The notes under the pieces were generated by a model. That model was not told where the DNA came from and did not search any database. It was given only the letters and a program-made list of their open reading frames with translations. This document shows, piece by piece, positions 7,942-24,296 of a stretch of 64,000 nucleotides of DNA (within the stretch, counting starts at the first letter, position 1; each line of letters starts with the position of its first letter). The DNA comes from Stratiformator vulcanicus (GTDB lineage: Bacteria; Planctomycetota; Planctomycetia; Planctomycetales; Planctomycetaceae), in NCBI RefSeq assembly GCF_007744515.1, contig NZ_CP036268.1:1126529-1190528 (forward strand), written 5' to 3'. The position numbers and the translations under genes are program-made.

Positions 7942-8058
7942 TTGAAACCCGAAGCCCGCTCGTCCGTCACGGGCGATGCGAGGCCCTTGCCGAGGCTGCC
8001 GCACGGAGGCAGCGAGACCAGATTGCCGAACTGAGCCGTGACAGCGCGAGCGAAAAAT

Positions 8059-8496
8059 ATGGCCTGGGTTGAAGAATTCGAGATCACGATTCCCAACGAC
8101 ACCGCTGAGGGTCAGCGCGTGCAGGAGAGGATCGTTGCGAAGCTCGAAGAACTCGACTTTCCCGAGCGCGACGTGTTCGGCGTGCGCCTGGCGCTCGAAG
8201 AAGCCCTCGTCAACGCGATCAAACACGGCAACGGGATGGACGAGGAGAAAACCGTCCAGATCGGTTGCTGGATCAGTGACGATCGCGTCCGCATCGAAAT
8301 CGAAGACGAAGGTCCGGGCTTCGACCCGGGCGATGTGCCCGACCCCACACTCGACGAAAATCTCGAGCGACCCTGCGGCCGCGGCCTGATGCTCATTCGC
8401 AGCTTCATGAGCCGGTGCGAGTATGTCGGGCGCGGAAACAAGGTGATCCTGGAGAAAGAACGCGCGCCCGCGACGACCGAAAAAACCGGGTCATGA
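8059..8496 (+). CDS. Anti-sigma factor serine kinase, RsbW/SpoIIAB-like GHKL ATPase
   Basis: The protein is 145 residues from ATG 8059 (an in-frame GTG at 8038 is an alternative). Typical GHKL ATPase boxes are visible: the N-box EEALVNAIKHGNG (about 52-64), the G1 box EDEGPGFDP (about 83-91) and the G2 box GRGLMLIRSFM (about 111-121). Proteins of this HATPase_c_2 type bind a sigma factor and phosphorylate the STAS antagonist. The STAS gene directly upstream supports a partner-switching module, although no sigma factor gene is adjacent; the ECF sigma at 37.1 kb is not obviously linked. Confidence 0.85.
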   Translation: MAWVEEFEITIPNDTAEGQRVQERIVAKLEELDFPERDVFGVRLALEEALVNAIKHGNGMDEEKTVQIGCWISDDRVRIEIEDEGPGFDPGDVPDPTLDENLERPCGRGLMLIRSFMSRCEYVGRGNKVILEKERAPATTEKTGS

Positions 8497-8599
8497 CGCC
8501 CTCGGCCAGCTCTTTCGGCGAACCTGTCCGCCACGACCGGCCTCCAGCCTTGAAACCGGCGGCATCGTTACTAATCATGGCGAATTCAACGCAGCATAT

Positions 8600-8672
8600 T
8601 CCCCGATAGCTCAATCGGTAGAGCGGCGGACTGTTAATCCGTAGGTTGTAGGTTCGAGTCCTACTCGGGGAG
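8600..8672 (+). tRNA. tRNA-Asn (GTT anticodon)
   Basis: The 73-base cloverleaf has acceptor arms TCCCCGA (8600-8606) and TCGGGGA (8665-8671) with discriminator G, D-loop AGCTCAATCGGTAGAGC, anticodon loop CTGTTAA with GTT at 8633-8635, and T-arm GTAGGTTCGAGTCCTAC. CCA is not encoded. An integrase gene ends 16 bases beyond its 3' end, so the tRNA is probably the attachment target of the element to its right. Confidence 0.97.
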
Positions 8673-8687
8673 CTTCCGAAGTCTTAA

Positions 8688-9902
8688 TCAATTAGCGACT
8701 TGCGGCGACCGATCAGGGTCGCCGTTTTTCGTTTCCGGCCCGGTGATAGCCAATGTGTTAGCTGGCCGCGCCGCCCATACAATATCGGCCGCGTCGTCGG
8801 CTTCGATGCCGACGTAATAGCTCATCGTCGTGTTGATCGAGGCGTGCCGCATGAGCTGCTGCAGGACCGCCGGTTTGACCCGCTGTGCCCACCGGGTACC
8901 GAACGATCGCCGCAGGTCGTGGGCACTCGCGAACTTCACTTTGCCGGACTTCGATTCGGCGACCTTCACGCCAGCTTTCCGGCCGATCTTGACGAGCGTT
9001 TTGCTCATCGTGCCCCACGTCACCCGGCCGCACTTCTTCGATCGCAACCAAGGGTTGAAGACGAAGCCGGTTCGCTGATCGTCGGGGATCTTCGAGAGCA
9101 GATCAGCGAATTCCGGAGCAACAGGCAACATGCGATCCTTGAAGCCCTTGTCGGCCCCCGCCCGAATCCGAAACATTGGCCGACGGCCCGACAGATCGAC
9201 GCACAACTCCCGGTCATCGGTCCAGTGTAGGCGGTAGGCTTCGCGGATTCGCAGGCCGGACCACCACAGCCCGCGAATTAAATCTTCCCACCCACCGACA
9301 GCATCCGCCGGCACAACGGTCGGAACTTTCGCGATCATCCGGTCGAGCTCTTCCGCGGTGATCGCTCGCCCCTTCATCTTCGGCACTCTCTTCGGCATGT
9401 CGATTTCCGGGGCGCGGCCGATCAGCCCGACCTTTGCCGCCCATCGCAGCGACGATTTGAGGTGAGCCAGATACGAAGCGATCGTCGCTTCGCTGAGTTG
9501 TTCTTTGCGTAGCATCCCCTGCATTCGCGAGATTTGACCGCTGTCGAGTGCGGCCAAGTTCTTCGGGTCAATCGTGCGTTCGACCGCTGCGAACGCACAC
9601 GCGGCCTTCTGGCCGGTCGATTCGGCCTTGCCGCTCAGAAACTCCGATTCGTATCTCTCGCGGAAGTCTTCCCAGCCGGTGAGTTGGGTTCCGATGAATG
9701 TGCCCTCTTCGAGTTCTCGCTCGAGCTTTGCCGCCTTGCGTTCGGCGTCACGCCGGACCGGCGTTTTGAGCGACTTCGTTTTCTTCCGACCGGTCACCGG
9801 GTCGACCCACTGACCAACGTAATTCTTCCGGTTCTTTGGCCTAAAGCATGAAACTTTCATTCGACCCGCCCCCCTGTCACGCTGTTGTCTTGTTTTCGTC
9901 AC
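8688..9902 (-). CDS. Tyrosine recombinase (phage/island integrase) next to tRNA-Asn
   Basis: The product is up to 404 residues from GTG 9902; an in-frame ATG at 9860 (MKVSCFRPK) is an equally good start. An N-terminal SAM-like core-binding domain spans roughly residues 75-180, and the catalytic domain follows. All catalytic elements are seen: Arg in WWSGLRIREAY, Lys in GADKGFKDR, HDLRRSF (HxxR), the His of LMRHASINTT, and Tyr in MSYYVG. The enzyme looks intact. Its stop lies 16 bp from tRNA-Asn, the standard arrangement for an integrated genomic island with attL at the tRNA 3' end. It is unrelated to the IntI remnant at 4.6-5.0 kb. Confidence 0.9.
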   Translation of the reverse strand: MTKTRQQRDRGAGRMKVSCFRPKNRKNYVGQWVDPVTGRKKTKSLKTPVRRDAERKAAKLERELEEGTFIGTQLTGWEDFRERYESEFLSGKAESTGQKAACAFAAVERTIDPKNLAALDSGQISRMQGMLRKEQLSEATIASYLAHLKSSLRWAAKVGLIGRAPEIDMPKRVPKMKGRAITAEELDRMIAKVPTVVPADAVGGWEDLIRGLWWSGLRIREAYRLHWTDDRELCVDLSGRRPMFRIRAGADKGFKDRMLPVAPEFADLLSKIPDDQRTGFVFNPWLRSKKCGRVTWGTMSKTLVKIGRKAGVKVAESKSGKVKFASAHDLRRSFGTRWAQRVKPAVLQQLMRHASINTTMSYYVGIEADDAADIVWAARPANTLAITGPETKNGDPDRSPQVAN

Positions 9903-9965
9903 GGTGAATCCGAAAAGAGACGCCCCGGCAATACACGCGGGGCGTCTCGTCAGAAGCCGTTCACG

Positions 9966-10391
9966 CTATGCGTGAGCCGCGTACGGATCGGGTGCCGCTT
10001 CCAGCCCGACCTTGATTCCGGTGTGCTGTTCGTAGAGGTCGCACACTCGGCTCATCGTCGCGTCGTCGTCTTTCTCGACCGTGAGGCCGATCGCGACGGT
10101 GTAGCCGGCGTCCTCTTCGCCCACCGGGGGATATGACCCGACGCCGAAGCAAGCGACACCCTCCCCCTCGCACGCTTCGACGAACGCCGCGTGAGCTTTT
10201 CCGCGCGGGCCCTTCGTCCCGTAGGAATCGTCAACTCGGTCAGCCTCGACCGGGTTGTTGTTGACGATCGCGAGCAGACCGTCGACTTCGTCCACGTCAT
10301 CGAGGCACGCCCGGAAGCGAAAGCGGTCGGACTCGTGAACCTCTTTCGCGACATCGTTCAAAATCTCTTCGTTGGTCCGTTCTTCGGCCAT
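9966..10391 (-). CDS. Island cargo: hypothetical acidic protein
   Basis: The start chosen is ATG 10391 (MAEERTNEEIL); an upstream in-frame ATG (10445) would add residues that do not look coding. The 141-residue product is very acidic with no signal peptide or membrane segment. It has a helix-rich N-terminus (NEEILNDVAKEVHESDRF) and a C-terminal half with the strand-like GYTVAIGLTVEKDDD. I do not recognise the family. It lies 63 bp upstream of the integrase gene on the same strand and is probably part of the same integrated element. Confidence 0.55.
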   Translation of the reverse strand: MAEERTNEEILNDVAKEVHESDRFRFRACLDDVDEVDGLLAIVNNNPVEADRVDDSYGTKGPRGKAHAAFVEACEGEGVACFGVGSYPPVGEEDAGYTVAIGLTVEKDDDATMSRVCDLYEQHTGIKVGLEAAPDPYAAHA

Positions 10392-10486
10392 TGTTCTACC
10401 TATCAATTCAGGGTTTGAATGCAGCCGCGACATTGCGGACCGCACGTTCAGTTACCGTTGCCGTTTGAAAATTCCGATTCAAGTGT

Positions 10487-10858
10487 TCATGCCGCCTTGG
10501 ATTCGTCCGGGGCCGCCGCGGCTTTCCGTTTTTCGATGAATTGGTCGACCTTCACCTCGATCGAGTGGGACGCATCGAGCAAGACGCCCTCGATCGATCG
10601 CATCAGTTCGGACGTGTCGTGCCAGCGGTCCCGGTCCGGGTCGGCTTCGTCGACGTCTTCCCAACCCGTCAGGTATTGGGCAGAGTACAGAGAGCATCGC
10701 CCCATCTTTTCGAACAGCCGTTGCCGAACTCGGTTGACGAGCCACGCGGCATCGTCGTCGGCCGCCGCGGCGAGCCGGTCGAGGTCTGTCGGGTATCGCC
10801 GGGGCGGCGAGTCATCGGCGACTTCGACGCCACGCTTTTCGCGAAAAGCGGTGATCAC
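10487..10858 (-). CDS. Island cargo: hypothetical protein, probably 5'-truncated by a repeat element
   Basis: The frame is open far upstream, but everything beyond 10860 is a repeat element whose translation has no protein character. The first plausible start is GTG 10858, two bases from the element's end. The remaining 123 residues are soluble and helical (DLDRLAAAADDDAAWLVNRV, SIEGVLLDASHSIEVKVDQF). I do not recognise a family. Either the element inserted into the original 5' region and the gene now starts at a fortuitous GTG, or the gene is broken. Confidence 0.5.
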   Translation of the reverse strand: MITAFREKRGVEVADDSPPRRYPTDLDRLAAAADDDAAWLVNRVRQRLFEKMGRCSLYSAQYLTGWEDVDEADPDRDRWHDTSELMRSIEGVLLDASHSIEVKVDQFIEKRKAAAAPDESKAA

Positions 10859-10860
10859 GG

Positions 10861-11014
10861 CGGGTGGCCCGACCGTGAAAACACCCGGGTCACGAAGCGA
10901 CGGGATGTGGTTCGACACCGTTCGGCTGACTGATCCGTCTCGCGTAAATCGGGAGGTTCTCGAACCACATCTTGTGCCTGTCGTCACCCGGCCGAGAATC
11001 GGCCGGGCCACCCG
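10861..11014. repeat. Inverted-repeat element family A, copy 1 (154 bp, MITE-like)
   Basis: The element starts with CGGGTGGCCCG and ends with the exact reverse complement CGGGCCACCCG. It contains a strong hairpin near the right end (CCGGCCGA/TCGGCCGG). It is closely similar over its length to 11537-11690 and shares its 11-bp ends with 34541-34736. It encodes nothing. No target duplication is evident at its edges. Confidence 0.75.
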
Positions 11015-11019
11015 TGGTT

Positions 11020-11056
11020 GTACGTTATTCGGAATGATTCTTGGTAAATACTCGTT
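11020..11056 (+). other. Second attI-like site, solo, with one downstream gene
   Basis: Thirty-one of 37 bases match the minus-strand sequence at 4604-4640, from ACGTTATTCGGAAT through TAAA.ACT to GTT. The last GTT belongs to GTTAGGC, a perfect match to the attC/attI core consensus GTTRRRY. Homology ends at GTT. There is no integrase gene beside it; the upstream side is occupied by an inverted-repeat element ending at 11014. Confidence 0.55.
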
Positions 11057-11069
11057 AGGCTTCACGCAT

Positions 11070-11444
11070 ATGGGTCGCCAAATTCAATTGTACGTCTGTC
11101 CTTTGATGCGAGAGGCAATCGTTTCGGAGGCGAAGCGTGTCGGCGCGAAGCTCGTCAGCCATAGCGCGGCGGGCGCTGATATCGAGTTCTCGACTAATTT
11201 CGGCGGCTCGCCGGAAGGTCGAATTTGGACAGAGGCAGCCGACCCATCGCAGTATCTGGCTCTATGTCGCGCCGCGAAGCGAGGCGCGGCCTATGACCGC
11301 GAGGCCAAACTTTGGGTGAAGCGAGCGTCTCAAGAAGAATTCCGTGCGTACTGGGTCGCACGGCAGAAGTCGCTCGACGAGTTGGTCGCACGAAATCGAA
11401 AGTTTTACATTGAGGTGCTTGGTGGCAGGCCGGTAAAACCATGA
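11070..11444 (+). CDS. Orphan small protein behind the second attI-like site (possible cassette gene)
   Basis: The protein has 124 residues from ATG 11070, only 14 bases after the G^TT of the attI-like site. The frame is open further 5', but that part translates repeat sequence. The protein is soluble and basic (RQIQLYVCPLMREAIVSEAK ... ASQEEFRAYWVARQKSL), alternating short strands and helices. I do not recognise a family. The context suggests an integron cassette. The 3' flank has an inverted repeat (AATCGCTGC/GCAGCGATT, about 11458-11517) that is only weakly attC-like. Confidence 0.55.
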   Translation: MGRQIQLYVCPLMREAIVSEAKRVGAKLVSHSAAGADIEFSTNFGGSPEGRIWTEAADPSQYLALCRAAKRGAAYDREAKLWVKRASQEEFRAYWVARQKSLDELVARNRKFYIEVLGGRPVKP

Positions 11445-11536
11445 ACGCCAGTCAAATCGCTGCGGCGAAACCCAGCCCCGCTTTGAAACTGGACGGTTCG
11501 GATTATTTGGCAGCGATTGTTCTGCTCACTTATCGG

Positions 11537-11690
11537 CGGGTAGCCCGGGCGCACGACCGGCCGGGTCGCGAAGCGACAGGATGTTGTTCGAAACCATTCC
11601 GCTGACTGATCGGTCTTGTGCAGATCGGAAGGTTCTCGAACCACATCTCGTGCCTGTCGGCACCCGGCCGAGAATCGGCCGGGCCACCCG
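11537..11690. repeat. Inverted-repeat element family A, copy 2 (154 bp)
   Basis: It is clearly similar to 10861-11014 over its whole length, of the same size, with ends CGGGTAGCCCG (one mismatch) and CGGGCCACCCG. The internal hairpin CCGGCCGA/TCGGCCGG is conserved. It stands between the orphan gene ending at 11444 and the PPK2 gene. No coding content is seen. Confidence 0.75.
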
Positions 11691-11750
11691 TTGGCAATTG
11701 AAACAAGGCTACTCTTAAGAGAAGAAGGCATAGCCGTCCATGATACCCGG

Positions 11751-11832
11751 CGGGTGGCTGCGAACGGTCTCGTAGAGCCGCCCCCAGCGAGCGCGGGGTA
11801 AGGCTGCTGTTGTTATTTACCCCAGCCACCCG
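11751..11832. repeat. Short inverted-repeat element family B, complete copy (82 bp)
   Basis: It is bounded by CGGGTGGCTG and its exact reverse complement CAGCCACCCG. The left 55 bases recur at 13349-13403 with few changes (GGTCTCGTAGAGCCGCCCCC is common to both). Confidence 0.65.
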
Positions 11833-11929
11833 TCGCGGCACCCGTAGAATCGCTTGGGCAAAATGTCCAACCGCGGGAAATTTGCGACATACGCAACCGG
11901 AGAATCAGACGGACCCATCTGCCGAGAAA

Positions 11930-12865
11930 TTACCATTTGTCGTCTTGATAAACTTCCTCCTTCTTACCGATTAAGTTCGACTCGGGTTGGCCGACAACAT
12001 CCGTGTCTTTGTTGAGATAGGGCACGGCATTGAGGACGTACTTCATACAGGCCAGCCGAGCGCGCTTCTTGTCGTCACTTTTGACGACCGTCCAGGGCGA
12101 AAACGTCGTGTCGGTCGACATAAACATTGACTTCTTGGCTTCCGTGTAGTCGTCCCACATGGCCAGCCCCTGCGCGTCGACCGGGCTGAGCTTCCATTGT
12201 TTGAGAGCGTCGTGTTCTCGAGATTTGAAGCGCCGAAACTGTTCTTCCCGGCTGACTGAGAACCAGAATTTAAACAGGCGAATCCCGTCGTCGATCAGCA
12301 TATTCTCAAGCATCGGCACCTGTCGCAAAAACGCATGGTGTTGCGACTGAGTGCAAAAACCCATCACCGGCTCGACAACGGCGCGGTTGTACCAGGAGCG
12401 ATCGAACAGCACGATCTCTCCGTTCGTCGGTAGCTGTTTAATATAACGTTGAAAGTACCACTCGCCGCGTTCGGTCTCACTCGGCTTACCCAATGCGACG
12501 ACCCGGGCATTTCGCGGATTCATATGTTCCATAAACCGTTTAATAGTGCCGCCCTTGCCAGCCGCGTCCCGACCTTCAAACAGCATCACGATCCGCTCGC
12601 CGTTGGTTTCCACCCAGTGCATCATCTTCAGCAATTCGACCTGCAGTGCGTGCTTCTCGCGTTCATAAGTTGCTGTATCGATCTTTTTGCTATACGGATA
12701 ACCTGATCCTAAGACCCGACCCTTGCGGGCCTTTTTCACGCGATTGCGAACTTCTTTAGGTACCACGTGGTCTTGAATGGCGACCGTGGCTAGGCCGGTT
12801 TGTGAACCGTTGCCGTTCGTCGAGAACCCGTTGCCCACGGATTTTGCAGACTTATTTCCAGACAT
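11930..12865 (-). CDS. ppk2: Polyphosphate kinase 2 family protein
   Basis: The protein is 311 residues from ATG 12865 (another ATG three codons upstream is possible). It has the PPK2 P-loop fold: Walker A GRDAAGKGGT (about 98-107), the lid Arg region (FMEHMNPRNARVVALGKPSE), and Walker B IVLFDRSWYNRAVVEPVMG. Single-domain PPK2 enzymes transfer phosphate between polyphosphate and nucleoside di- or monophosphates; the sequence alone does not settle which direction or nucleotide. The length fits a one-domain class I/III enzyme. The first 30 or so residues are a low-complexity Asn/Gly/Ser extension. It stands alone, with a long upstream non-coding region. Confidence 0.9.
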   Translation of the reverse strand: MSGNKSAKSVGNGFSTNGNGSQTGLATVAIQDHVVPKEVRNRVKKARKGRVLGSGYPYSKKIDTATYEREKHALQVELLKMMHWVETNGERIVMLFEGRDAAGKGGTIKRFMEHMNPRNARVVALGKPSETERGEWYFQRYIKQLPTNGEIVLFDRSWYNRAVVEPVMGFCTQSQHHAFLRQVPMLENMLIDDGIRLFKFWFSVSREEQFRRFKSREHDALKQWKLSPVDAQGLAMWDDYTEAKKSMFMSTDTTFSPWTVVKSDDKKRARLACMKYVLNAVPYLNKDTDVVGQPESNLIGKKEEVYQDDKW

Positions 12866-13631
12866 CGCACGCATTCAACCAAGAACTGGAGCCATTCTCA
12901 GGAGCGCGGAGAAAAGCCGGAAAGGGAGATGGAGCGGATGCCACGCAATGTGGCGGTCCATCAGGCGATCAGGAATCCCTTCCGGGCGGGCAAGACATGA
13001 CGATCGAACAAATCCAGACCATCAAAGCCCGCGAATCGACTGCTGACACCAATTGAGCAAAACACGTACCACACTTTTGCCGGAGAAGATCATCAGCAGT
13101 ACGACGATCATCTTCCGGGAGGGGCAAGTTCAAGGAACCGCATAGATTACTCGCGAGGAGATCACGGGCCGAATTCTCAATTCTTCGACTAAGACGTGTC
13201 GGCCATGCGAGTGGCCGTTCATGGGGTCGAGTTCGATGGGCAGGCTGCTTAACAACCGGGCACGCTAGTGTGGCTCCTCACAAGCCCGTCACTCCCTGCC
13301 GGATGTGAGAACTTCTGGGCAGTTCAGCCGAAGTCTTGGGCCGTCGGCGGGTGGCTGGGGACGGTCTCGTAGAGCCGCCCCCATCGAGCGCGGGTTAAGG
13401 CTTAGGATGTGGATCATCAATTGCGTTCTCGGCCCGAAGGTATCATTGGGCGAGCGGTTGGGCCGCAATGTATGGTCAACTTCAACAGCAGCGCGTCCTG
13501 AGATGACCGCTGGTTCGGCGGAGAGTGGATGATTGATCTACTATGAGCTAGAGTCATCCGGTTCAAGCCTTGCTCCGCCGTTCTGGAGGGCCGTGCCCTG
13601 TTAAAGGGGATTCAATGCCCGGAGGTTTCTG
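12866..13631. other. Long non-coding region
   Basis: About 765 bases separate the PPK2 start and the sulfatase start. A partial family B repeat is at 13349-13403. I see no convincing gene, tRNA or riboswitch in the rest. GGAGG at 13621-13625 is the ribosome site of the sulfatase. Confidence 0.5.
13349..13403. repeat. Family B repeat, left part only
   Basis: It matches the left 55 bases of the element at 11751-11832, beginning with the same CGGGTGGCTG end and finishing at TAAGGCT. The right inverted end is missing, so this copy is truncated. Confidence 0.6.
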
Positions 13632-15023
13632 ATGTCGTCGCGCCGCTTAATGTTGTCTTCCACTTTCGCGTTCCTGCTGACCTGCCTGAATGCTGTCGGC
13701 AGGGCGGATGAGCCGAACGTCCTGCTCGTCATGCTGGACGACGCCGGCTGGACCGACTTTGGCTGCTACGGCTCCGACATCGACACGCCGAATATCGATG
13801 CGTTGGCGGGCGAGGGAGTCCGATTTACAGACTGTCACGCTGCGGCCCCGAACTGCTCGCCGTCTCGCGCCGGGATGCTCACGGGGCGGATGCCGACGCG
13901 GGCGGGAATTTATTCCTATATTCCCCCCGGCCATCCGATGCACCTTCGCAATGAAGAGGTCACGCTTGCCGAAGTTCTTAAAGAGCATGGCTACGCGACC
14001 GGTCATTTCGGCAAGTGGCATCTCTCACAGGTCGGCAGCGATCAGCAACCGCAGCCGTCCGATCAGGGGTTCGATCATTCCCTCGGCACCACCAATAACG
14101 CGAAGCCCAATCATCTTAATCCGACCAACTTCTACCGCAATGGACAGAAGCTCGGCCAAGTGAAGGGCTATTCGTGCGACATCGTTGTTAATGAATTCGA
14201 CCAATGGTTGAGCGACGTGCCACAGGAGCAGCCGTTTCTCGGCGTGGTCTGGTTTCACGAGCCTCACACGCCGATCGCTTCGCCGCCTGATCTTGTTGCA
14301 AAGTATCGAGACCGCGGTTTAACAAAGAAGAAAGCCAAGTACTTCGCCAATATCGAAAATGTCGATCGCGCGATGGGCCGACTGCTTCACCTTCTTAAAA
14401 GTGCCGGACGTGCCGACAACACGTTTCTCTTCCTGACGTCCGACAATGGCGGCGTGAATGACTGGTCGAACCAAGGTCTTCGCGGTCGAAAGTCGTTCGT
14501 CTATGAAGGCGGCCAGCGTGAGCCGGGGATTCTATGGTGGCCCGACAAGATTAAGGCCGGCACCGTTTCCGATGAGACGGTCAGCCATCTCGACCTGTTC
14601 CCCACGATCTGTGAAATTACGGGGGCCTCGCCGCCGGCCGATCGCTCGCTCGACGGGACGAGTTGGCTGCCGCACCTCGTAGAAGGGGAGGCTTTAACTC
14701 GGGAGACGCCCCTGCTGTGGTACTTCTATCGGGTCGCGCCCGCTGCGGCCATGCGGGACGGCGACTATGTGCTGCTCGGCTATCTCGATGACCCGATTCA
14801 CAAGCACTCTCACGCGCTGACAAAGCCCGATATGCCGATGATTAAATCGGCCCCCCTGCACCGCTTTGAACTTTATAACTTGGCGACCGACCTTGATCAG
14901 ACGACCGATTTATCCCTTGAGCATCCGCAGCGCCTGCAAAAAATGATGCAAACGATGCAGCGAATGCACCGCGAGGTGGTGAGCGAAGGACCGAGTTGGA
15001 ATCTCGACGACTGGCGGCGTTAA
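13632..15023 (+). CDS. Secreted sulfatase (arylsulfatase family S1)
   Basis: The protein is 463 residues from ATG 13632 with GGAGG upstream. A signal peptide is followed by the sulfatase core at about residue 28 (PNVLLVMLDDAGW, metal-binding Asp-Asp). The formylglycine site is Cys75 in CSPSRAGMLTGR, matching CxPxR; the Cys would need oxidation by a maturation enzyme that is not encoded in this window. GHFGKWHL and TSDNGG, the other conserved blocks, are present. It should hydrolyse sulfate esters in the periplasm; the substrate cannot be read from sequence. It is followed by an unrelated regulatory-looking gene on the same strand. Confidence 0.92.
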   Translation: MSSRRLMLSSTFAFLLTCLNAVGRADEPNVLLVMLDDAGWTDFGCYGSDIDTPNIDALAGEGVRFTDCHAAAPNCSPSRAGMLTGRMPTRAGIYSYIPPGHPMHLRNEEVTLAEVLKEHGYATGHFGKWHLSQVGSDQQPQPSDQGFDHSLGTTNNAKPNHLNPTNFYRNGQKLGQVKGYSCDIVVNEFDQWLSDVPQEQPFLGVVWFHEPHTPIASPPDLVAKYRDRGLTKKKAKYFANIENVDRAMGRLLHLLKSAGRADNTFLFLTSDNGGVNDWSNQGLRGRKSFVYEGGQREPGILWWPDKIKAGTVSDETVSHLDLFPTICEITGASPPADRSLDGTSWLPHLVEGEALTRETPLLWYFYRVAPAAAMRDGDYVLLGYLDDPIHKHSHALTKPDMPMIKSAPLHRFELYNLATDLDQTTDLSLEHPQRLQKMMQTMQRMHREVVSEGPSWNLDDWRR

Positions 15024-15130
15024 TCGTCCGGGACTCATTCAGTCGTTCGCTGTGGCGCTTCCCTCTAGCATCGTGAGCGCGTACGTTTCTATATTGTCAC
15101 CAACGAATCGAACCCTCGGGCACACATCGG

Positions 15131-16756
15131 ATGAACCAAAATCCTTTCCCCAGCCTGAGCGATGACGAAATGTCGTGCCTGCAGCAATATGGCACATGTC
15201 GTCAGTTCGACGATGGCGAGTCGCTCTTCGAGGCGGGAGACCGCGACTATTCATTCTACGCGATCAAGTCGGGCGAGGTCGTCGTGCTCGACCGGACCGG
15301 TGACGACGAAAAGGAAGTCGCTGTCCATCAGGAAGGCGAATTCACCGGCGATGTGTCGCTGCTGACCGGTCAACCCGCTGTCGTCTCTGCCGTCGCCCGA
15401 GGTGGGTGTGAAACGTTTGAAGTAAAGGCAGATCGAGTTCGGTTTCTTTTAAGCGAACTTCCCGGCCTGAGCGAAAAGTTGCTCGAGGCGTTTCAAATTC
15501 GTCGGCAAATTCTGGAGGGCTCTGATTTCCAAGGGCTGCGGGTCGTCGGCCCGCTGAATTCAATGCCGACGAATCAACTGCTGGAGTTTTTATATAAGAA
15601 CAAAATTCCTCACACGTTCTACGATATCGCAGATGAACAGGGGGAAAAGCTTGCCGACAAGCTCGATGTTTCAACGGACGAGACGCCGTTTTTAGCCTGC
15701 AATGAGAAGGTGGTGAAACGGCCGTCACTGGCGGGTCTCGCCGAGTGCCTCGGCATATCACGAGATATCGACGACCGACTTTATGACACGGTGGTGATCG
15801 GAGCCGGGCCGTCTGGTTTGGCCGCCGCGATCTATGCGGGGTCGGAAGGCCTCGACACCGTCCTGCTCGACAGCATGGGGCCTGGTGGTCAAGCCGGGCA
15901 AAGCTCCAAGATCGAGAACTATATGGGGTTTCCGGCCGGACTCTCCGGCGCGGAGCTTGGAAATCTCGGCTATCTTCAAGCCATGAAGTTCGGGGTGACC
16001 TTTACGGCGCCGGTGATCGCCCGTGATATTGAATCGACCGACGAGGGACATCTGCGAATTAAGCTTTGCACCGGCCAGAATGTGCGCACGAAAACGGCCC
16101 TCATCGCGACGGGCGTTTCTTACCGCCGACTGCCAATTGATGATATCGAGCGATTCGAGGGGGCCGGCGTTTACTACTCTGCGACCTCAGTGCAGGCCCG
16201 GATGTGCCGCGACGCGACGGTCGTTGTTGTTGGCGGAGGAAATTCCGCGGGTCAGGCCGCCCTTTATTTGAGCCGACATGCCGAGCGTGTGTTGATGCTG
16301 CTGCGTGGTGACAACCTGCGAAAGAGCATGTCCGACTATCTCGCCAAGCGGATTGAAAACAGTGACCGGATTGACGTGCGGTTTCATACCGAGGTTGAGA
16401 GCGTTGGCGGTGAGGATCAGCTTGCCGGCGTCGGGCTCGTCAATAACCAAAGCGATGAACGCGAGCAGATCGACTGTGCCGGGCTGTTCGTGTTCGTGGG
16501 CGCGAAACCGCACACCGAATGGTTACCCGATTCGGTGGTGCTCGATGACCGCGGCTATGTGCTGACCGGCCCTCGGATTCAAAAATGCGACTGCTGGCCG
16601 CTCGACCGCACGCCATGCGAGTTGGAGACGACGCTCCCAAGCGTCTTCGCCGCGGGCGACGTTCGCAGCGGCACCACCAAACGCTGCGCGTTCGCCGCCG
16701 GCGATGGTGCCATGAGCGTCAGTTGCATGCACGAAGTGCTGGAAGACCTGTCGTAA
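15131..16756 (+). CDS. Fusion of cyclic-nucleotide-binding domain, glutaredoxin-like domain and thioredoxin-reductase-like flavoprotein
   Basis: There are 541 residues in three parts. Residues about 10-115 form a Crp-type cNMP-binding domain (FEAGDRDYSFYAIKSGEVVV, EGEFTGDVSLLTGQPA). About 135-205 resemble a glutaredoxin/thioredoxin fold without cysteines. About 218-541 are a thioredoxin-reductase-like FAD/NAD(P)H enzyme: GAGPSGLAAAIYAGSEGL (FAD), GPGGQAG, VVVVGGGNSAGQAALYLSR (NADPH) and FAAGDVR. The CxxC disulfide motif of true reductases is replaced: around residues 347-352 the sequence is YYSATS where YCATC is normal. It may be a redox or nucleotide sensor rather than a disulfide reductase. 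Similar fusions are known in bacteria, with role unproven. Confidence 0.88.
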   Translation: MNQNPFPSLSDDEMSCLQQYGTCRQFDDGESLFEAGDRDYSFYAIKSGEVVVLDRTGDDEKEVAVHQEGEFTGDVSLLTGQPAVVSAVARGGCETFEVKADRVRFLLSELPGLSEKLLEAFQIRRQILEGSDFQGLRVVGPLNSMPTNQLLEFLYKNKIPHTFYDIADEQGEKLADKLDVSTDETPFLACNEKVVKRPSLAGLAECLGISRDIDDRLYDTVVIGAGPSGLAAAIYAGSEGLDTVLLDSMGPGGQAGQSSKIENYMGFPAGLSGAELGNLGYLQAMKFGVTFTAPVIARDIESTDEGHLRIKLCTGQNVRTKTALIATGVSYRRLPIDDIERFEGAGVYYSATSVQARMCRDATVVVVGGGNSAGQAALYLSRHAERVLMLLRGDNLRKSMSDYLAKRIENSDRIDVRFHTEVESVGGEDQLAGVGLVNNQSDEREQIDCAGLFVFVGAKPHTEWLPDSVVLDDRGYVLTGPRIQKCDCWPLDRTPCELETTLPSVFAAGDVRSGTTKRCAFAAGDGAMSVSCMHEVLEDLS

Positions 16757-16783
16757 TCGACCGGTCGCATGGGCGGGACTCGT

Positions 16784-18217
16784 CTATTCGCTTAATAGCC
16801 GATCCAGCTCGGCTTGCAGCGATGGAAGAATGGGCGGCGTTTCAGATCCGCTCAGCAAATTGCGCATCTCATAGGGATCGTTCTTTAGGTCATAGAGTTC
16901 ATCCATGCCTTTAAGATCATTATACCGGATGTACTTCCAGCGTGAGGTTCGCACCGCGTGGTAGCCCATGTTCTTAACGCGTGGGAAGACGGTGTCGGTG
17001 TTGTATTCGACAAGTAGCGAATCTCGCCAGTCGTCCGGTGACTCTCCCTTAAGCAGCGGAACAAGGCTGCGGCCGTCCAATTTTCGATCCACACTCACTT
17101 CGGCGAATTCGAGGAGTGTCGGAGCAAGATCGACGATCGCGGCCATCTCGTCGACGACCTGACCCGCAGGCACCGCCCTCGGATAGCGGACCAATAGTGG
17201 AACACGAAGCGCCTCTTCATACGCCAGTCGCCGCTCGACGCTTAAGCCGTGCTAGCCATACCAGTAACCGTTATCGCTGGTGAAAACGAAGATGGTGTCG
17301 TCCAACTTCTTTGATTCCTTGAGCGACTTCAGAAGCATCCCCACGCCTTCATCGACGGCGGCCAACATCCGCAGCCGATCGCGAATCGTCTCGTCATCGG
17401 TCCCGGTCGCTCGACTCAGGGGCGGAAGCCCCTCGATCTCTAGCTGCAGAGCCGGTTTATCGCTGATGTCGTCAGTGACATTAAGCCGCCGCGGGATCGG
17501 ATCGTCTCGGTAGAGGCCCTCATGTCGCTGGGCGGGGAGGAATCGTGCCGCGGAAGGATCGGAAATACTGCCGTCATCATATTGAATTAACTCGGGATGA
17601 AGCGCTTTCTGGGCGACGTAAAGGCAAAAGGGCGTTTCTCGCTCGCGTCCTGCGAACTCGGCTGCATACCGGTTTAAAACATCGGTCGTGTGCCCTTCGT
17701 GTGAAACGAACTTTCCGTTGATGTTTAATTCAGGATTGAACGAAGTTCCTTGCCCTTTAATACCGACCCAATGATCGAAGCCGGGTCGGGCGGAGGCATC
17801 GTTCCCCATGTGCCACTTCCCGACATAACCCGTTTCGTAGCCGGCCGCCTGCAGTTCCCGTGGGAAGGTCTGCAAGCGATAACTCTGTTCGCTGCGGTCG
17901 GTGTTATCGCGAATGCCGTGATTCTTTGTGTATAGACCGGTCAGCAGGCAGGCACGCGCGGGCGAACATAATGGGGTGTTGCAAAATGCATTGCGAAAGC
18001 GTGCACCCTCATAAGCCAGACGATCAATATGCGGCGTTCTTACAATAGGATGCCCCGCACAACCGATGTCGTCCCAGCGCAAGTCATCGACCAGAATGAC
18101 AATGATATTGGGTCGGGGGATGTTGGGTCGGGGGTGGTCCGCCGCATCAGCGACGCAATGGGACACGCAGAGCGCGAGCGCGACGGCCGCGATGACGGCT
18201 GATTGAGGAATGATCAT
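16784..18217 (-). pseudogene. Secreted sulfatase interrupted by one in-frame amber codon
   Basis: The frame from ATG 18217 encodes a signal peptide and a complete sulfatase N-terminal domain with formylglycine site Cys84 in CSPARACLLTG, GYVGKWHMG and TSDNGYWYG. A TAG at 17252-17254 (codon 322 of 478) then follows. Translation continues in the same frame with HGLSVERRLAYEEALRVPLL and a normal C-terminal domain to 16784. In intact relatives this position is the Glu of GEHGL, so a single GAG-to-TAG change explains the stop. No other lesion is visible, so the mutation is recent, or is a sequencing error, or is read through. It converges with the preceding gene, leaving 27 bp. Confidence 0.88.
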
Positions 18218-18375
18218 TGGTGTTATCGACAAGGCCTGTTGAGTTGAGCGCCGCGGGACGATTCCACGATGCGGCGACCGGCCTTACGATGTCAAGCCCG
18301 GCCCCTGAATTTGGCGATGGCTCCGCGGTCGCCAAATTTCCGAGGCTGCGCCTCATGTCGTGCGAAAAACGGCTG

Positions 18376-19383
18376 TCAATCTAAGGTTTCGCGCGGAAAG
18401 ATCTTGTTCCAATCACGCCGCATATCGACAATTAGCCAACCGTGCTTTTCTGCTTCGTCGAGAGCTTTGTCGGAGCGACCGATTAATGAATCACGGTCGT
18501 AAGCGTACTCTCGCGTTGCGTCGGTGTGATGGATTAGGATCGCCATTCCGGGGCCAACCGTGTTCGCGGCCCACTGAAGCATTTGGAGGTCGCCGTCGGA
18601 GTTGCCGCCGGCAATGACGGGGCGACGACCGATGACCTGTTGAATTCCGACCGGCTTGCCGGGGCCATCATCGATGAGATCGATCTGCGGCAATTTCATT
18701 AATACTGGCTGCCCGTACCGTTGATCGAATTTGTATTTCCCTCGGGAACCGACGACCTGCTCGGGTGGGATGCCGTAGACTTCTTCGCACCATGCCCGCA
18801 CGAAGTCGACGCCACCACCCGTAACAATGTAGGTCTTAAAGCCGTTCGCCCGTAGAAAGGCAAGCAATTCGACCATCGGTTGATAGGTCATTTCGGTGTA
18901 GAGCAGCCCGGTCTCGGGGTGACGAGCTGACGCAATCCATTCGTTGACGATCGATCGAAATTCGTCGACGCTCATGCCGGAGTGCGTCGCCGCGATAATT
19001 TTCGCCAAGCCCGGCTTCCCCAATTTCTTAAGGGACGCCATATCACCTTCCAAGACCGACTTGTAAGGCTCTTCGTTTTTCCATTCCGGGTGGGCCTCGG
19101 CCATCGCCTTAATTCGGTCGATCGCGAACACAAGTTGCACGTAGGCCGGCTGCTCGCACCAGAGGGTGCCATCGTTGTCAAAGACGGCGATGCGCTCGGC
19201 GGGCGGTATAAACCCTTCCGAACCTTCAGTGGTTGCCTGTTCGACGAAGTCGACGATCGACTGCTTGGTGGCATTGTCGTTCCAAGAGGGCAATGGTTGG
19301 GTAGATTCTTCCGCGACCAGTGCGTGACACCAACATCCCACGAAGAGGAGACTGACCGCTATTGGGGTTGCAAACTGATTCAT
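18376..19383 (-). CDS. Exported HAD-superfamily phosphatase
   Basis: The start is ATG 19383 with GAAGGA upstream; the product is 335 residues with a signal peptide ending near residue 25. HAD motifs are intact: motif I FDNDGTLW, motif II TGGG within YIVTGGGVDF, a Lys region, and motif IV GGNSDGDLQML. The arrangement resembles phosphoserine-phosphatase-like HAD enzymes found exported in many bacteria. The substrate is unknown; a periplasmic phosphomonoesterase is likely. It begins 17 bp after the DUF502 gene and on the same strand, so the two are probably co-transcribed. Confidence 0.85.
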   Translation of the reverse strand: MNQFATPIAVSLLFVGCWCHALVAEESTQPLPSWNDNATKQSIVDFVEQATTEGSEGFIPPAERIAVFDNDGTLWCEQPAYVQLVFAIDRIKAMAEAHPEWKNEEPYKSVLEGDMASLKKLGKPGLAKIIAATHSGMSVDEFRSIVNEWIASARHPETGLLYTEMTYQPMVELLAFLRANGFKTYIVTGGGVDFVRAWCEEVYGIPPEQVVGSRGKYKFDQRYGQPVLMKLPQIDLIDDGPGKPVGIQQVIGRRPVIAGGNSDGDLQMLQWAANTVGPGMAILIHHTDATREYAYDRDSLIGRSDKALDEAEKHGWLIVDMRRDWNKIFPRETLD

Positions 19384-19400
19384 CGTTTTTCCTTCAAGTC

Positions 19401-20063
19401 TTACCCGTCTGTCGCAGTTGGCGGTGTCGGGGCGGCAGTTCGAGTGGCTGGCCCGTCCTCGGTTGGCTTTAAGGTGTTCACATAACATAGGGAGTCACGG
19501 CCGAGACGTTCGAACGTCGCCATGACGTCGCCGACCTCGCCCTCGATCGGTTTGACCCGGTCGACCGTCACAAAACCGACATGTCCCGCCCACGGGTCGG
19601 GTGAACTCGGCAGGTAGAGTGTGACAAGTTCGTCAGACCGCTCGACTTCGAACGCGATCCTCGTCGTATCGATCATCTCGACGAGGACCGGCTTAAGACG
19701 AGACTTTGCAAATTCCCCGCCAATCCCGCCCGAGACCTGATCTTTATAGATCGAATACCGTGGGAAGATGAGGGTCAAATGCTTCTCGACGAACTCTCCC
19801 AGCCGCCTGCTGATCGCAAGTTGTGCGGCCAGCCCCGCTGCAAAACAGAGCAGGAGTACGAGTGCGACGGCCGCGATGAGCAACACGAAGTAGCCGTAAG
19901 CGGTCTCAATCCCGAGGGTGTCACGCAGTATTCCAGCGACAACTAGGACTACCTGGCTCACCTTGCCGAGCAACACTCCGATCACGATCAGAGGCAAGAG
20001 GAAGACCAGCCCGCCGATTGCAGTCGTTCTGAGAAAGCCAATCGATTTTGTCACCGCTTCCAA
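19401..20063 (-). CDS. DUF502 family membrane protein
   Basis: The protein has 220 residues. Two long hydrophobic segments (about 13-45 and 55-85) are followed by a soluble domain with PRYSIYKDQVSGGIG, VTLYLPSSPDPWAGHVGFV and VKPIEGEVGDVMATFERLG. The PSSPDPWAGHV block is typical of DUF502, a two-helix membrane protein family found widely in bacteria and plants with no agreed function. A basic/Pro-Thr tail ends the protein. It lies directly upstream of the HAD phosphatase gene, suggesting an operon. Confidence 0.85.
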   Translation of the reverse strand: MEAVTKSIGFLRTTAIGGLVFLLPLIVIGVLLGKVSQVVLVVAGILRDTLGIETAYGYFVLLIAAVALVLLLCFAAGLAAQLAISRRLGEFVEKHLTLIFPRYSIYKDQVSGGIGGEFAKSRLKPVLVEMIDTTRIAFEVERSDELVTLYLPSSPDPWAGHVGFVTVDRVKPIEGEVGDVMATFERLGRDSLCYVNTLKPTEDGPATRTAAPTPPTATDG

Positions 20064-20094
20064 GTTGCGACTCCATCACCTCGGCATTAAAGAC

Positions 20095-20128
20095 GGCGAA
20101 CCCGACCGGGTTTCAGATCGGGCTCGCC
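20095..20128. terminator. Hairpin between sulfatase and DUF502 genes
   Basis: The arms GGCGAACCCGA and TCGGGCTCGCC form a stem with one mismatch and a 12-base loop. It lies just 3' of the minus-strand sulfatase stop (20150) and upstream of the DUF502 start. There is no strong U-run, so it could be an intrinsic terminator of the sulfatase transcript or an mRNA-end stabiliser. Confidence 0.5.
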
Positions 20129-20149
20129 GCGATAGGTTGACCGAAGATA

Positions 20150-21757
20150 TTAACGCCCCCGGGCCGCGTTCTCGATCTGCTCTTGCACCTTTTCGAGATT
20201 AAACGACCCGGCCTTCTGGCTCGGCGGATACTCCTGCAGAGACTTAAAGAACTTACCGGCGATTTGCTGCATGGGGACGATCGCGAATGCACGATCAAGC
20301 ACCCAATCGTTGTAAACGGTCGCGTTGTGCTGAGCTTTCTCGAACGGATCGCGACGCAGGTTAAAGATCAGCGGTACGCGCAGCTCCGTAAACGGTTCCC
20401 GCCACACCTCGAACGCCATGCCCCTGTTTTCGAGGAACACGCCCTTCCAATCGCCCAAGCGGATCGCAACGACCGCCCCGTCGTCATTGACATAGAAGAA
20501 CTGTTTACGCGGTGACGCCTTAATGTTCGCTTCGATGCTCTTATAACTGTCGGCATTGGCCAGATACTCGGTCAGATCATGCCCGTCCAAGTGCTGGCGG
20601 TATTCTCGGCCGATGGCCTCGTAGCCGTCGAGCATGTCCTCTTTCAGGTCTTTCTTGCCGGCGGCGGCGGCGAAGGTCGGCATCCAGTCTTCGTGGGCCA
20701 CAATCCCATTGACCGTCGCGCCGGCGGGCCATTTGTCCGGCCAGCGTGCGAAGGCCGGGACGCGATACGCGCCCTCCCAGTTGCTGTTTTTCTCGTTGCG
20801 AAACGGCGTATACCCCGCATCGGGCCACGTGTTGAAGTGCGGCCCATTGTCGGTGGAGTAGAGAACGATTGTATTGTCAGCAATACCGAGATCGTCGAGC
20901 AACGTGAGCAATTCGCCGACGTGGCCGTCGTGTTCGACCATGCCGTCGTGATATTCATCCCCGCTGCTGCCGCTAATTCCCTTATTCTCTTCTTTAACGT
21001 GCGTGCGGAAGTGCATTCGCGTCGCATTCCACCAGCAGAAGAATGGTTTGTCGCCATTCTGCTTACGCTCGATGAAGTTCTTGGCCGCCGCGACCGTTTC
21101 CTCGTCGATCGTCTCCATCCGCTTTTTTGTCAGCGGGCCGGTGTTCTCGATCGTCTGGGTTCCATCGGGATTGGCTTTGGCTTTCAAGACGCCGCGGGGG
21201 CCGTACTGCTCAAGAAATGTCTTCCCGTTCGGCAGCTTCATCTCGCCGGGGTAGTCGCGGTTCTCCGGCTCCTCTTCGGCATTGAGGTGATAGAGGTTGC
21301 CGAAGAACTCATCGAAACCGTGATTTGTCGGCAGGTGTTCGTCGCGGTCGCCGAAATGGTTCTTTCCGAACTGCCCGGTGGCGTAACCTTGCTCTTTAAG
21401 CACGGCGGCGATGGTGATGTCCTGCTCCTGCCAGCCTTCCTTGGCTCCGGGGAGGCCGACTTTCGTCATCCCGGTCCGCACGGGAACCGTGCCGCCAATG
21501 AACGCCGCCCGCCCGGCCGTGCATGATTGCTGGCCGTAATAGTCGGTGAAGCTGATGCCCTCGCGCGCGATGCGGTCGATGTTCGGCGTGGCGTAACCCA
21601 TCATCCCACGGTTGTTGTGGCTGATGTTCCACGTGCCAATGTCGTCACCCCAGATGACCAAAATATTCGGTTTCTCCGCAGCGTCTGCGGCTGGGGTCGC
21701 CAGAGATAGCGAAAGCAGCAAAGCTGCCAAGAACTTCAACCGTGGGTAAGCTCCCAT
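20150..21757 (-). CDS. Secreted arylsulfatase, CxAxR type
   Basis: The protein is 535 residues from ATG 21757 (GAGAGGAA upstream). A signal peptide ends near AADAAEKPN. The metal site is WGDDIG, and the formylglycine residue is Cys79 in [12 protein letters not shown], a CxAxR rather than CxPxR motif. [20 protein letters not shown] and [14 protein letters not shown] are further conserved blocks. This subfamily is often labelled arylsulfatase A-like; the substrate is uncertain. It is transcribed divergently from the M16 peptidase gene and shares a roughly 210-bp upstream region with it. Confidence 0.92.
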
Positions 21758-21919
21758 GACTGTTCCTCTCAAAGAATTGTTGTGCCGGGCCCGGCTTTTG
21801 ATGTGGATGACTCTCATAGGTTGCCGCCCCCCCCGACCGCATTGCAAGTCATTTCGGGTTGCTGCTTCGACCGGGCGATTGATTCTCAGCCGCGTGACGA
21901 ACTCCGGCCTTCACGCCAT

Positions 21920-21945
21920 AATCCCTTGCTTGCGCTGCGGGCTTG
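21920..21945. repeat. Single arm of dispersed repeat C
   Basis: These 26 bases, beginning AATCCCTTGCTTGCG, are identical to the right arm of the element at 27921-28027. The arm lies alone upstream of the M16 peptidase gene. Confidence 0.65.
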
Positions 21946-21971
21946 ATTCACACGTTTTTGAGAAACGCGAC

Positions 21972-23213
21972 ATGCACTTCCACCAAACCACGCTCTCCAA
22001 TGGTCTCGACGTCGTCGCCGAGGTGAATCCCAAGGCGAAATCGGTCGCGGCGGGGTTCTTCGTCAAGGCGGGGAGTCGGGATGAGACGCCTGATGTATCG
22101 GGGGTCAGTCACTTTTTGGAGCACATGGCTTTCAAAGGGAACGAGCGGTATTCGGCGGATGATGTGAACCGCATCTTCGACGAGATCGGGGCCGACTATA
22201 ACGCCAGCACCGGCGAGGAGGTGACGACCTATTACGCCGCGGTTTTGCCGGAGCATCTGCCGACGGCGTTCGAACTGCTTTCGACCCTGGTCCGGCCGAC
22301 GCTGCGGCAGGAGGACTTCGATTTGGAGAAGAACGTCATCTTGGAGGAGATCGGGATGTACGACGACCAGCCGGCGTTTCTGGCCTATGACAAAGCGATG
22401 GCGGCTCACTTCGCCGGGCACCCGCTGGGGCGGAGCATTCTCGGATCGAACGAGTCGATCTCAGCCCTGACGGCGGACGCGATGCGGAAATATCACGCCG
22501 GGCAATATGTCGGGGGAAACATCACGCTGGCCATCGCGGGCAATGTCGGCTGGGATGAGATCCAGGCATTAGCCGGAAGATATTGCGATGCGATTCCCGA
22601 GGGGGACTTGGAGCGGGAAGTTGAAGAGGCCCGCCCCGTCGGTGGAACCACGGTTTTGACCCGCGACAATACCACGCAGCAATACGTCATGCAGATGGCT
22701 CCCGCGCCGTCAGCCGAGAGTCCGCTGCGATTTGCGGCGGAGCTCTTAAGTGTTGTCGTGGGGGATGACTCGGGGAGCCGGCTCTACTGGGACATCGTCG
22801 ACCCCGGCCACGCGGAAGCCGCCGAGTTGGGCTTTAACGAATACGACGGCAGCGGCAGCTGGCTGACCTTCCTCGCCGGTACTCCGGAAGAAACGACGGC
22901 GAATCTCGACCGCATCGCGGCCATCTATGAAAAAATTAATGCCGAAGGCATTTCTGAGAAAGAACTGGAACAGGCCAAGAACAAGGCACTCTCCCGCGTC
23001 GTCTTAAGAAGCGAACGCCCGATGGGCCGGCTCTCGTCGCTCGGCAGCAACTGGGTTTATCGCAAGAGCTACGAGAGCGTGGATGCTGACCTCGAAGCGG
23101 TGAAACGCGTCACCACCCACGACGTGCGAGACTTGCTGTCCGTCTACCCGCTGAAACAATTAACAACCGTGGCAATCGGCCCGCTCGATGAGTTGCAATG
23201 GCAAGCGTCTTAA
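21972..23213 (+). CDS. M16 family zinc peptidase (processing-peptidase-like)
   Basis: The protein is 413 residues from ATG 21972; the frame is open far upstream but the family begins at [17 protein letters not shown]. The inverted zinc motif HxxEH is HFLEH (residues 47-51), and the third ligand is in NVILEEIG (about 121-128). The length matches the 45-kDa single-subunit class (PqqL/YmxG or mitochondrial beta-MPP-like). No signal peptide is seen, so it is probably cytoplasmic. The C-terminal non-catalytic domain, with the R/Y-pair region (WVYRKSYES), is complete. Confidence 0.92.
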
Positions 23214-23417
23214 TACAAGCCAAGTTTGCTGAGAACCGCGGGCCGCATTGGGGAACACATTACCAAGACACGTCCCCGCCTCCCGACGCGCTCGATCCGC
23301 ACTTCACAGGAAGTGCGGCTTGTTGTTGGGTGACCTGTCGCTTCTCCTCCCAAGCCGAGGTTCCTGAGAACCGCGGACTTATTGAGATTTCGAAAAGAGA
23401 GTTCCTTTACGACCAAC

Positions 23418-24296
23418 TCATCGCGGTTTCATCGGGACACGATCAATTGCACTGCAACTGGCGGCATTTGAAAAATTTGAACCGTCCTTCTTCGCCATGA
23501 TGAGCGACGTGAAGAGCGTGGCGGAGAACTCGGGTCTGTCCACGATGTAATCGCGGCCGCCCGGAACGAGCATTGATTTGAGCCGTGCGCGTTCATGTTC
23601 CGGGGTGTGGTCCCCGACGAGTGACCACAGTTCTGTTAAGGCAATATCGAAAAAACGCCGGTCGATCCGCGAGAGCGGGGATAGTCGATCAAAGCCGAAT
23701 GAATAACGCTTCGGATTCCTCCAGCCGTTTCGTTTGAGAATGCGGTAGGCGTATCGGCTGAAGCAAAGCCCATCGATCCCGGCGGATCGGCGTTCAAACG
23801 CCGTGGCCAGTGCCTGCTGAACGATTCCTTCATCGCGCGGGTCGAGTGGCAATACCATCCGATGCATCCCGTCATCTTCCAGTATGACGAGTCGGCCGCC
23901 GGGCTTGAGGACCCGATTCATCTCTTTGAAGAGGCGTTCGTGATTCGAGAGCGTTTCGAGGCTGTAAGCAAAGAAAACGAGGTCGAAGAACTCCGGGGGA
24001 ATCGGCATGCGATACGCCGACGCATTCAGGAAGGCGACGTCTCGGCCGAGTTGATTCACGCAGACGCTGTGAGCGTTTTCTAAGGCATTGACGTCGGTAT
24101 CAACGCCCAGGATCGTGGCCGACGGATTCAGCCCGCTCAGCAGGCGGGTGAAGAACCCCCTTCCGCAACCAACGTCGAGTACGCGATGCCCCGGCTCGGA
24201 AGGAACTCCGCGAAGCATTGTTTCGTATTCTTCATCGAACGCCGCTTCGCGGGCATCGAGAGCGCTGATTTCCGAGTCGATCATCACCGACCACAT
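23418..24296 (-). CDS. SAM-dependent methyltransferase (class I)
   Basis: The protein has 292 residues. The SAM-binding motif I is VLDVGCGRGFFTRLL (about 39-53), the acidic residue ends strand 2 in ILGVDTDVNAL, motif III is around FFDLVFFAYSLETLSN, and GGRLVILEDDGMHR follows. The C-terminal third (from about 180) carries the substrate region and is not recognisable. The acceptor is unknown; Methyltransf_11-type enzymes act on small molecules, lipids or quinones. The terminal 30 residues look poorly conserved. An alternative ATG lies four codons inside. Confidence 0.85.
   Translation of the reverse strand: MWSVMIDSEISALDAREAAFDEEYETMLRGVPSEPGHRVLDVGCGRGFFTRLLSGLNPSATILGVDTDVNALENAHSVCVNQLGRDVAFLNASAYRMPIPPEFFDLVFFAYSLETLSNHERLFKEMNRVLKPGGRLVILEDDGMHRMVLPLDPRDEGIVQQALATAFERRSAGIDGLCFSRYAYRILKRNGWRNPKRYSFGFDRLSPLSRIDRRFFDIALTELWSLVGDHTPEHERARLKSMLVPGGRDYIVDRPEFSATLFTSLIMAKKDGSNFSNAASCSAIDRVPMKPR

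Follow-up and report, generated by a model that had tools for sequence, protein, structure and literature searches.

The Stratiformator vulcanicus gene at 15131-16756 (+) encodes a fusion of 541 residues, in which a cyclic nucleotide-binding-like (CNB) domain, a glutaredoxin (Grx)-like domain and a thioredoxin reductase (TrxR)-like FAD/NAD(P)H domain follow one another. It belongs to a family in which the active-site CxxC of TrxR is absent throughout and one cysteine, Cys359 of the query, is kept almost without exception; these features are family-wide and not a matter of chance. We see about an even chance that the protein is an NAD(P)H-dependent FAD oxidoreductase on the TrxR fold, which has dropped the dithiol relay and would deliver its electrons to an outside acceptor. 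This is the most likely reading, followed by a disulfide reductase working through a single thiol and then by a redox sensor. The query is an unremarkable member of a family that is widespread, widely annotated and little studied and for which an NCBI name already exists, and the main interest lies in the family rather than in this member.

The gene is a single open reading frame with exactly these coordinates in the 64-kb window, which is the whole stretch of DNA analysed (64,000 nucleotides). Its domains were delimited from the translation, Pfam and an AlphaFold model (one best model from 57 aligned rows, with pLDDT of 93.1 and pTM of 0.91). The CNB-like domain comprises residues 24-108 (15200..15454, +; Pfam PF00027 cNMP_binding, 2.1e-15), the Grx-like domain residues ~136-208 (15536..15754, +; bounds from the secondary structure of the model), and the reductase domain residues 217-541 (15779..16753, +), of which Pfam assigns residues 218-522 to Pyr_redox_2. 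Both cNMP_binding and Pyr_redox_2 are present in 57/57 members, and Pfam Glutaredoxin scores in only four of the 57, with no match in the query itself. Nevertheless, the middle domain of the model has a Grx-like β-α-β-α-β-β-α fold. The domain order given by an earlier sequence-only reading is thus upheld, by Pfam for both ends and by the modelled fold for the middle. A sequence comparison with solved structures gives thioredoxin reductases as the top matches; these span residues 216-540 only, and none of the matches listed is a chain of the whole fusion. A promoter scan of the locus returned no match, and terminators were at chance level.

The site of the CATC motif of canonical TrxRs is SATS in the query (residues 350-353; 16178..16189, +). 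As a control, CATC occupies this site in 17/17 canonical TrxRs from viral contigs, an alignment from which L157 was excluded for its unknown bases. The relatives aligned with the query number 103, made up of nine individually fetched sequences, 80 loci from a contig scan and 14 from a further scan; the 80 are the best 80 of 586 relatives, and the sample, to which all counts over 103 relatives refer, is biased towards query-like sequences. It spans numerous bacterial phyla, with two records from archaea, and includes L011 (with frame breaks) and L031 (short), both of which were excluded from the family tree. CxxC at the canonical site was found in 0/103 of these relatives. Residue 350 is Ala in 51, Gly in 26, Ser in 13, Trp in 11, and Glu and Val in one each, and cysteines at the neighbouring sites are confined to L062 (position 353) and to L013 and L040 (position 351). 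A CxxC inside residues 340-365 of L031 and L118 is composed of Cys359 and a cysteine three residues on. The Grx-like domain also lacks CxxC, at residues 132-160 of the query and of all 103 relatives; a glutaredoxin active site of CxxC or CxxS type is absent, and the stretch between residues 94 and 189 of the query is devoid of cysteine. Both substitutions had been described correctly from the single sequence, and the alignment that was then proposed shows the loss to be general, in 103 of 103 relatives.

In a tree of the reductase parts (44 chosen rows, with CAxC in the near relatives L015, L017 and L018), the CNB proteins are separated from all canonical sequences by a branch of length 1.21 with support of 100/100, and their side of the branch also holds related stand-alone proteins from viral contigs. 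Because none of the 103 relatives has CxxC and this single branch is fully supported, the loss is old and shared, and a lineage-specific loss of the cysteines was ruled out on the same grounds. Among the relatives on viral-classed contigs (L127-L142), several are reductase-only and have no CNB domain, and some carry HYACT, with Cys one position past the first CxxC cysteine. The CDGFF residues of TrxR have likewise been replaced in the query, with the acidic residue and both Phe gone. Two Phe contact thioredoxin in the TrxR of D. radiodurans according to PMC8945050, and these are probably the Phe of CDGFF.

Compared to the dithiol site, the cofactor sites are well preserved. The GxGxxG motif for FAD (residues 224-229; 15800..15817, +) has G224 and G226 invariant in both alignments, and together with the NAD(P) motif GGGNSAG (residues 368-374; 16232..16252, +) its glycines are invariant or nearly so, in agreement with the early view of both sites as intact. 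Superposition using VIA-align 2 against two crystal forms of L. lactis TrxR, FR (5mh4) and FO (5mjk), showed that the query model follows the FR form, with 1.6 Å over 302 residues (Z 34.8), compared to 7.1 Å over 301 residues for the FO form. By contrast, a canonical CATC control model (one best model from 17 aligned rows, pLDDT 86.4) handled by the same procedure follows the FO form, with 2.1 Å over 299 residues, against 6.7 Å over 300 for the FR form. These fits suggest that the query is modelled in the flavin-reducing form, where NADPH would meet the flavin, and the CATC control in the form where the disulfide would meet the flavin. In addition, the query model superimposes on the TrxR-like ferredoxin/flavodoxin NADP+ reductase 8c16 with 2.6 Å over 305 residues at 24% identity. 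We take 8c16 to be a TrxR-like fold without a CxxC relay and without a CNB or Grx-like domain.

In the favoured outside-acceptor reading, NAD(P)H would reduce FAD directly while the domains are in the FR arrangement. From the flavin, electrons would then go to an acceptor outside the enzyme, which could be a protein, a quinone, a small molecule or oxygen, bypassing CxxC and thioredoxin. The degenerate CNB-like and Grx-like domains may act as docking or regulatory modules, with neither a classical cAMP/cGMP switch nor a dithiol site, and Cys359, just behind the helix that bears CxxC in TrxR, could serve either structurally or as a lone thiol in contact with the partner. The reading is supported by the absence of CxxC from all 103 relatives behind one deep, fully supported branch, the retained FAD and NAD(P) motifs, the fits to the FR form and 8c16, the replaced CDGFF, the members with a single cysteine, and a separate canonical TrxR with CAVC in the S. 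vulcanicus genome. Against it stand the reduction of thioredoxin and DTNB by ATII-TrxR reported in PMC6544261, the conservation of Cys359, far stricter than a mere structural role needs, and the candidate partner gene of the family, a UBP-type zinc finger (zf-UBP), which is below cut-off in the S. vulcanicus genome.

Cys359 (16205..16207, +) is found in 101 of the 103 relatives (best 80 of 586 included), and the two exceptions are sister sequences with Cys at 351. From this alignment, the conservation looks like a strong constraint on one residue. The notion that the protein had lost all redox cysteines is too strong as worded, as the query has 13 cysteines in total and Cys359 is so widely kept. 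In three full-length members of 548-568 residues (L028, L029 and L069), Cys359 is the sole cysteine, which excludes an obligatory internal disulfide, and these mono-cysteine sequences point to a single thiol as the probable requirement. As stand-alone relatives from viral contigs either carry Cys at 351 but lack one at 359 (L136 and L141) or lack both (L135), the constraint is specific to the CNB fusions and does not extend to the whole clade.

The remaining cysteines are less constant. Cys302 and Cys468 occur together in 38 of the 50 sequences having either, and Cys190 and Cys206 together in 31 of 47 (both counts including the best 80 of 586). The idea that the family works through an internal disulfide moved to another site was rejected, since neither pair occurs throughout the family, positions 302 and 468 of the query are both Ser, and Cys359 is the only cysteine of three members. 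Cys496 (16616..16618, +) and Cys532 (16724..16726, +) occur in one identical set of nine sequences, the query and eight planctomycetes; the co-occurrence is weak evidence, because the carriers form one clade. Where the last helix begins, K517-R518-C519 (16679..16687, +) is aligned to the canonical R-Q-A. Lys517 and Arg518 are each present in 101/103 relatives, and Cys519, which aligns with the Ala, in 6/103, all in the planctomycete clade (best 80 of 586 included). R-Q-A presumably sits near the flavin in TrxR.

A search of the openly licensed PMC literature on CxxC loss, the CNB fusion and the zf-UBP link yielded, among the titles listed, only one directly relevant paper, PMC6544261. There, ATII-TrxR is described as a FAD-bound dimer of 552 residues with Crp and TrxB domains, produced in E. 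coli and sharing 87% identity with a C. metallidurans protein. It is reported to reduce thioredoxin with a Km of 1.03 μM and a kcat of 28.4 per s, to reduce DTNB, and to accept NADPH or NADH. The model shown there draws Cys206-Cys223 and Cys376-Cys467, with Cys376 in a redox centre, and the term “CXXC” appears nowhere in the main text. A C. metallidurans CH34 homologue has cysteines 187, 204 and 357 (counted from the last start), which become 206, 223 and 376 upon addition of 19. Solely via this homologue, Cys206, Cys223 and Cys376 of ATII-TrxR are placed at query positions 190, 206 and 359, and Cys467 as drawn lacks an exact-register cysteine in the homologue. ATII-TrxR is probably a member of the family. 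The reported use of both NADPH and NADH would also fit R392-G393 of the query (16304..16309, +), where the first Arg of the TrxR HRR motif is kept and the second lost; Arg392 is present in 102/103 relatives and Arg393 in 6/103 (best 80 of 586 included).

If the activity reported in that account is right, thioredoxin is reduced without CxxC. An enzyme of this kind, in which CxxC is replaced by Cys359, acting by itself or together with a second thiol supplied by another domain, the other subunit or the partner, and disulfides are still reduced, is a possible but clearly less probable explanation than the outside acceptor. It would account for the near-invariance of Cys359 in 101/103 relatives (with the best 80 of 586 among them) and the Cys351 of both exceptions, for the ATII-TrxR activity with Cys376 in register with Cys359, and for the WCGPC thioredoxin gene that adjoins that of the reductase on plasmids of Streptomyces and Rhodococcus. 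Against it count the three members that have Cys359 only, the lack of an exact-register counterpart of Cys467 in the C. metallidurans homologue, and the loss of the acidic residue and both Phe of CDGFF; moreover, the former CxxC region would face away from the flavin in the predicted FR-like pose. ATII-TrxR was also obtained from E. coli, a host with its own TrxB, and carry-over of the host enzyme, if present, would mean that the activity need not reflect CxxC-free reduction. A near-FAD cysteine together with thioredoxin activity was the combination that the sequence-only reading had named as speaking against it, and half of it is in print, in the reduction of thioredoxin and DTNB and the redox centre with Cys376 given in PMC6544261. 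The conflict between this activity and the missing CxxC is the most useful one for the family: either a single cysteine can suffice for disulfide reduction in a TrxR fold, or database annotation and publication alike need correcting.

Within the CNB-like domain, the phosphate-binding cassette (residues ~71-92) has Ala83 in place of an arginine. Ala83 aligns with the phosphate-binding arginine in PRAAT of the PKA regulatory subunit, which we take to hold the cyclic phosphate. Arg at this position was found in 0/103 relatives (best 80 of 586 included), four of which are gapped there; L114-L118 align from query residue 133 only and are mostly gaps at the CNB positions. Because the cassette arginine is absent from the query and its relatives, classical binding of cAMP or cGMP is unlikely, and regulation by these nucleotides through the classical contacts is disfavoured; the domain may bind some other ligand. 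The cyclic-nucleotide domain recognized initially therefore holds as a fold and not as a classical ligand site. The functions first proposed, namely NAD(P)H oxidase, electron donor or redox/nucleotide sensor, hold in part: an NAD(P)H flavoprotein bypassing the dithiol fits, given the universal loss of CxxC, the NAD(P) motif, the FR pose and a candidate partner gene beside many relatives, whereas a cyclic-nucleotide sensor is not supported, given the missing arginine. Altogether, the original observation was partly confirmed and its first interpretation partly supported.

A gene for a small UBP-type zinc-finger protein lies within 400 bp (<=400 bp) of the reductase gene in 27 of 77 loci (best 80 of 586 included). 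The 77 are 84 loci minus seven with <1 kb on one side, and two of the seven, L048 and L087, also carry the gene. The linkage occurs in Actinomycetota, Bacteroidota, Acidobacteriota, Pseudomonadota, Gemmatimonadota, Bdellovibrionota and Myxococcota, and in the planctomycete genome G046 the only zf-UBP match above cut-off sits immediately 5' of the reductase gene. None of the 19 other genomes searched, S. vulcanicus included, has a match above cut-off; a partner elsewhere in the S. vulcanicus genome was rejected, the best candidate being one weak match of 13.5 bits below the cut-off. In the linked lineages, the linkage provides good evidence of a common task; this does not extend to the S. vulcanicus genome. 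The zinc-finger proteins keep a near-C-terminal cysteine preceding a tyrosine in 28/29. Relatives of clpB and dnaJ are near the reductase in 18/84 loci (best 80 of 586 included), all in Actinomycetota, where a grpE-dnaJ-cbpM-clpB-trxA-UBP-zinc-finger cluster often surrounds it, also on plasmids (L019, L022, L033, L042, L052, L066, L102 and others). On Agrobacterium/Rhizobium plasmids (L020 and L168), a sigma-factor-like gene lies just 5' of the zinc-finger and reductase pair.

It is conceivable, though unlikely, that the mono-cysteine flavoprotein in its FR pose and the UBP zinc-finger protein act as a pair on protein thiols that are damaged or zinc-bound, reducing them with no dithiol relay, in Actinomycetota as part of DnaK-ClpB-thioredoxin stress islands. 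If true, this would be a TrxR-derived electron route with a ubiquitin-reader fold as bacterial acceptor or adaptor. A sensor or regulator, whose FAD/NAD(P)H core would read the redox state of pyridine nucleotides and whose N-terminal domains would relay it to a partner with turnover incidental, seems to us rather improbable. The adjacent zf-UBP (27/77) and nearby chaperone genes (18/84; both counts with the best 80 of 586) and the resemblance of the CNB-like and Grx-like domains, devoid of catalytic and ligand residues, to interaction modules would suit it; nevertheless, the NAD(P)H and FAD motifs are preserved in the way seen in enzymes, turnover is reported for ATII-TrxR, the cyclic-phosphate arginine is missing, and no neighbour is shared in the S. 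vulcanicus window.

The closest annotated proteins are those named by NCBI “cyclic nucleotide-binding domain-containing thioredoxin-disulfide reductase” or “FAD-dependent oxidoreductase”, which share the three-domain order, the lack of CxxC, and Cys359. The query has the domain order, full-length homology, missing CxxC and Cys359 of such CNB-containing TrxR-like FAD oxidoreductases. The 40 plasmid matches listed span 98-100% of the query, and the annotated ones mostly carry these names; many family members are database-named thioredoxin-disulfide reductases despite missing the residues that define the reaction. Streptomyces angustmyceticus WP_260640578.1 is 44% identical over 98% of the query; the Streptomyces gene lies inside the chaperone cluster described above, whereas that of S. 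vulcanicus is outside any such cluster. Canonical low-molecular-weight TrxR (TIGR01292) has the reductase fold and the FAD and NADPH motifs in common with the query, which differs in scoring 218.8 bits, below the cut-off of 343.45, in lacking CxxC beside the flavin, and in its opposite predicted pose. The top rows of a whole-model Foldseek comparison are AhpF, which likewise has a thioredoxin-fold domain before the TrxR core. AhpF presumably has CxxC centres in both parts, and the query in neither.

A decaying, functionless copy of a redundant TrxR paralogue that has lost its cysteines is very improbable. The canonical CAVC enzyme retained in the genome and the patchy occurrence of the gene within the phylum (15 of 294 genomes at E 1e-90) are what such a copy might leave; yet the reading frame is intact and full-length, the protein is 59-60% identical to L025 and L105, and the loss of cysteines is common to the clade across many phyla.

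The S. vulcanicus gene is flanked by sulfatases, with HAD, DUF502 and PPK2 genes nearby in the window, and none of the neighbour proteins tested was found within positions 7001-25000. The polyphosphate kinase 2 gene is at 11930-12874 (-) (PF03976, 4.7e-97). The sulfatase frame at 16784-18232 (-) is broken by one in-frame TAG at 17254-17252; its Sulfatase part (17252-18229) and SGSH_C part (16784-17194) share one frame on the minus strand, which indicates a nonsense change or a sequencing error.
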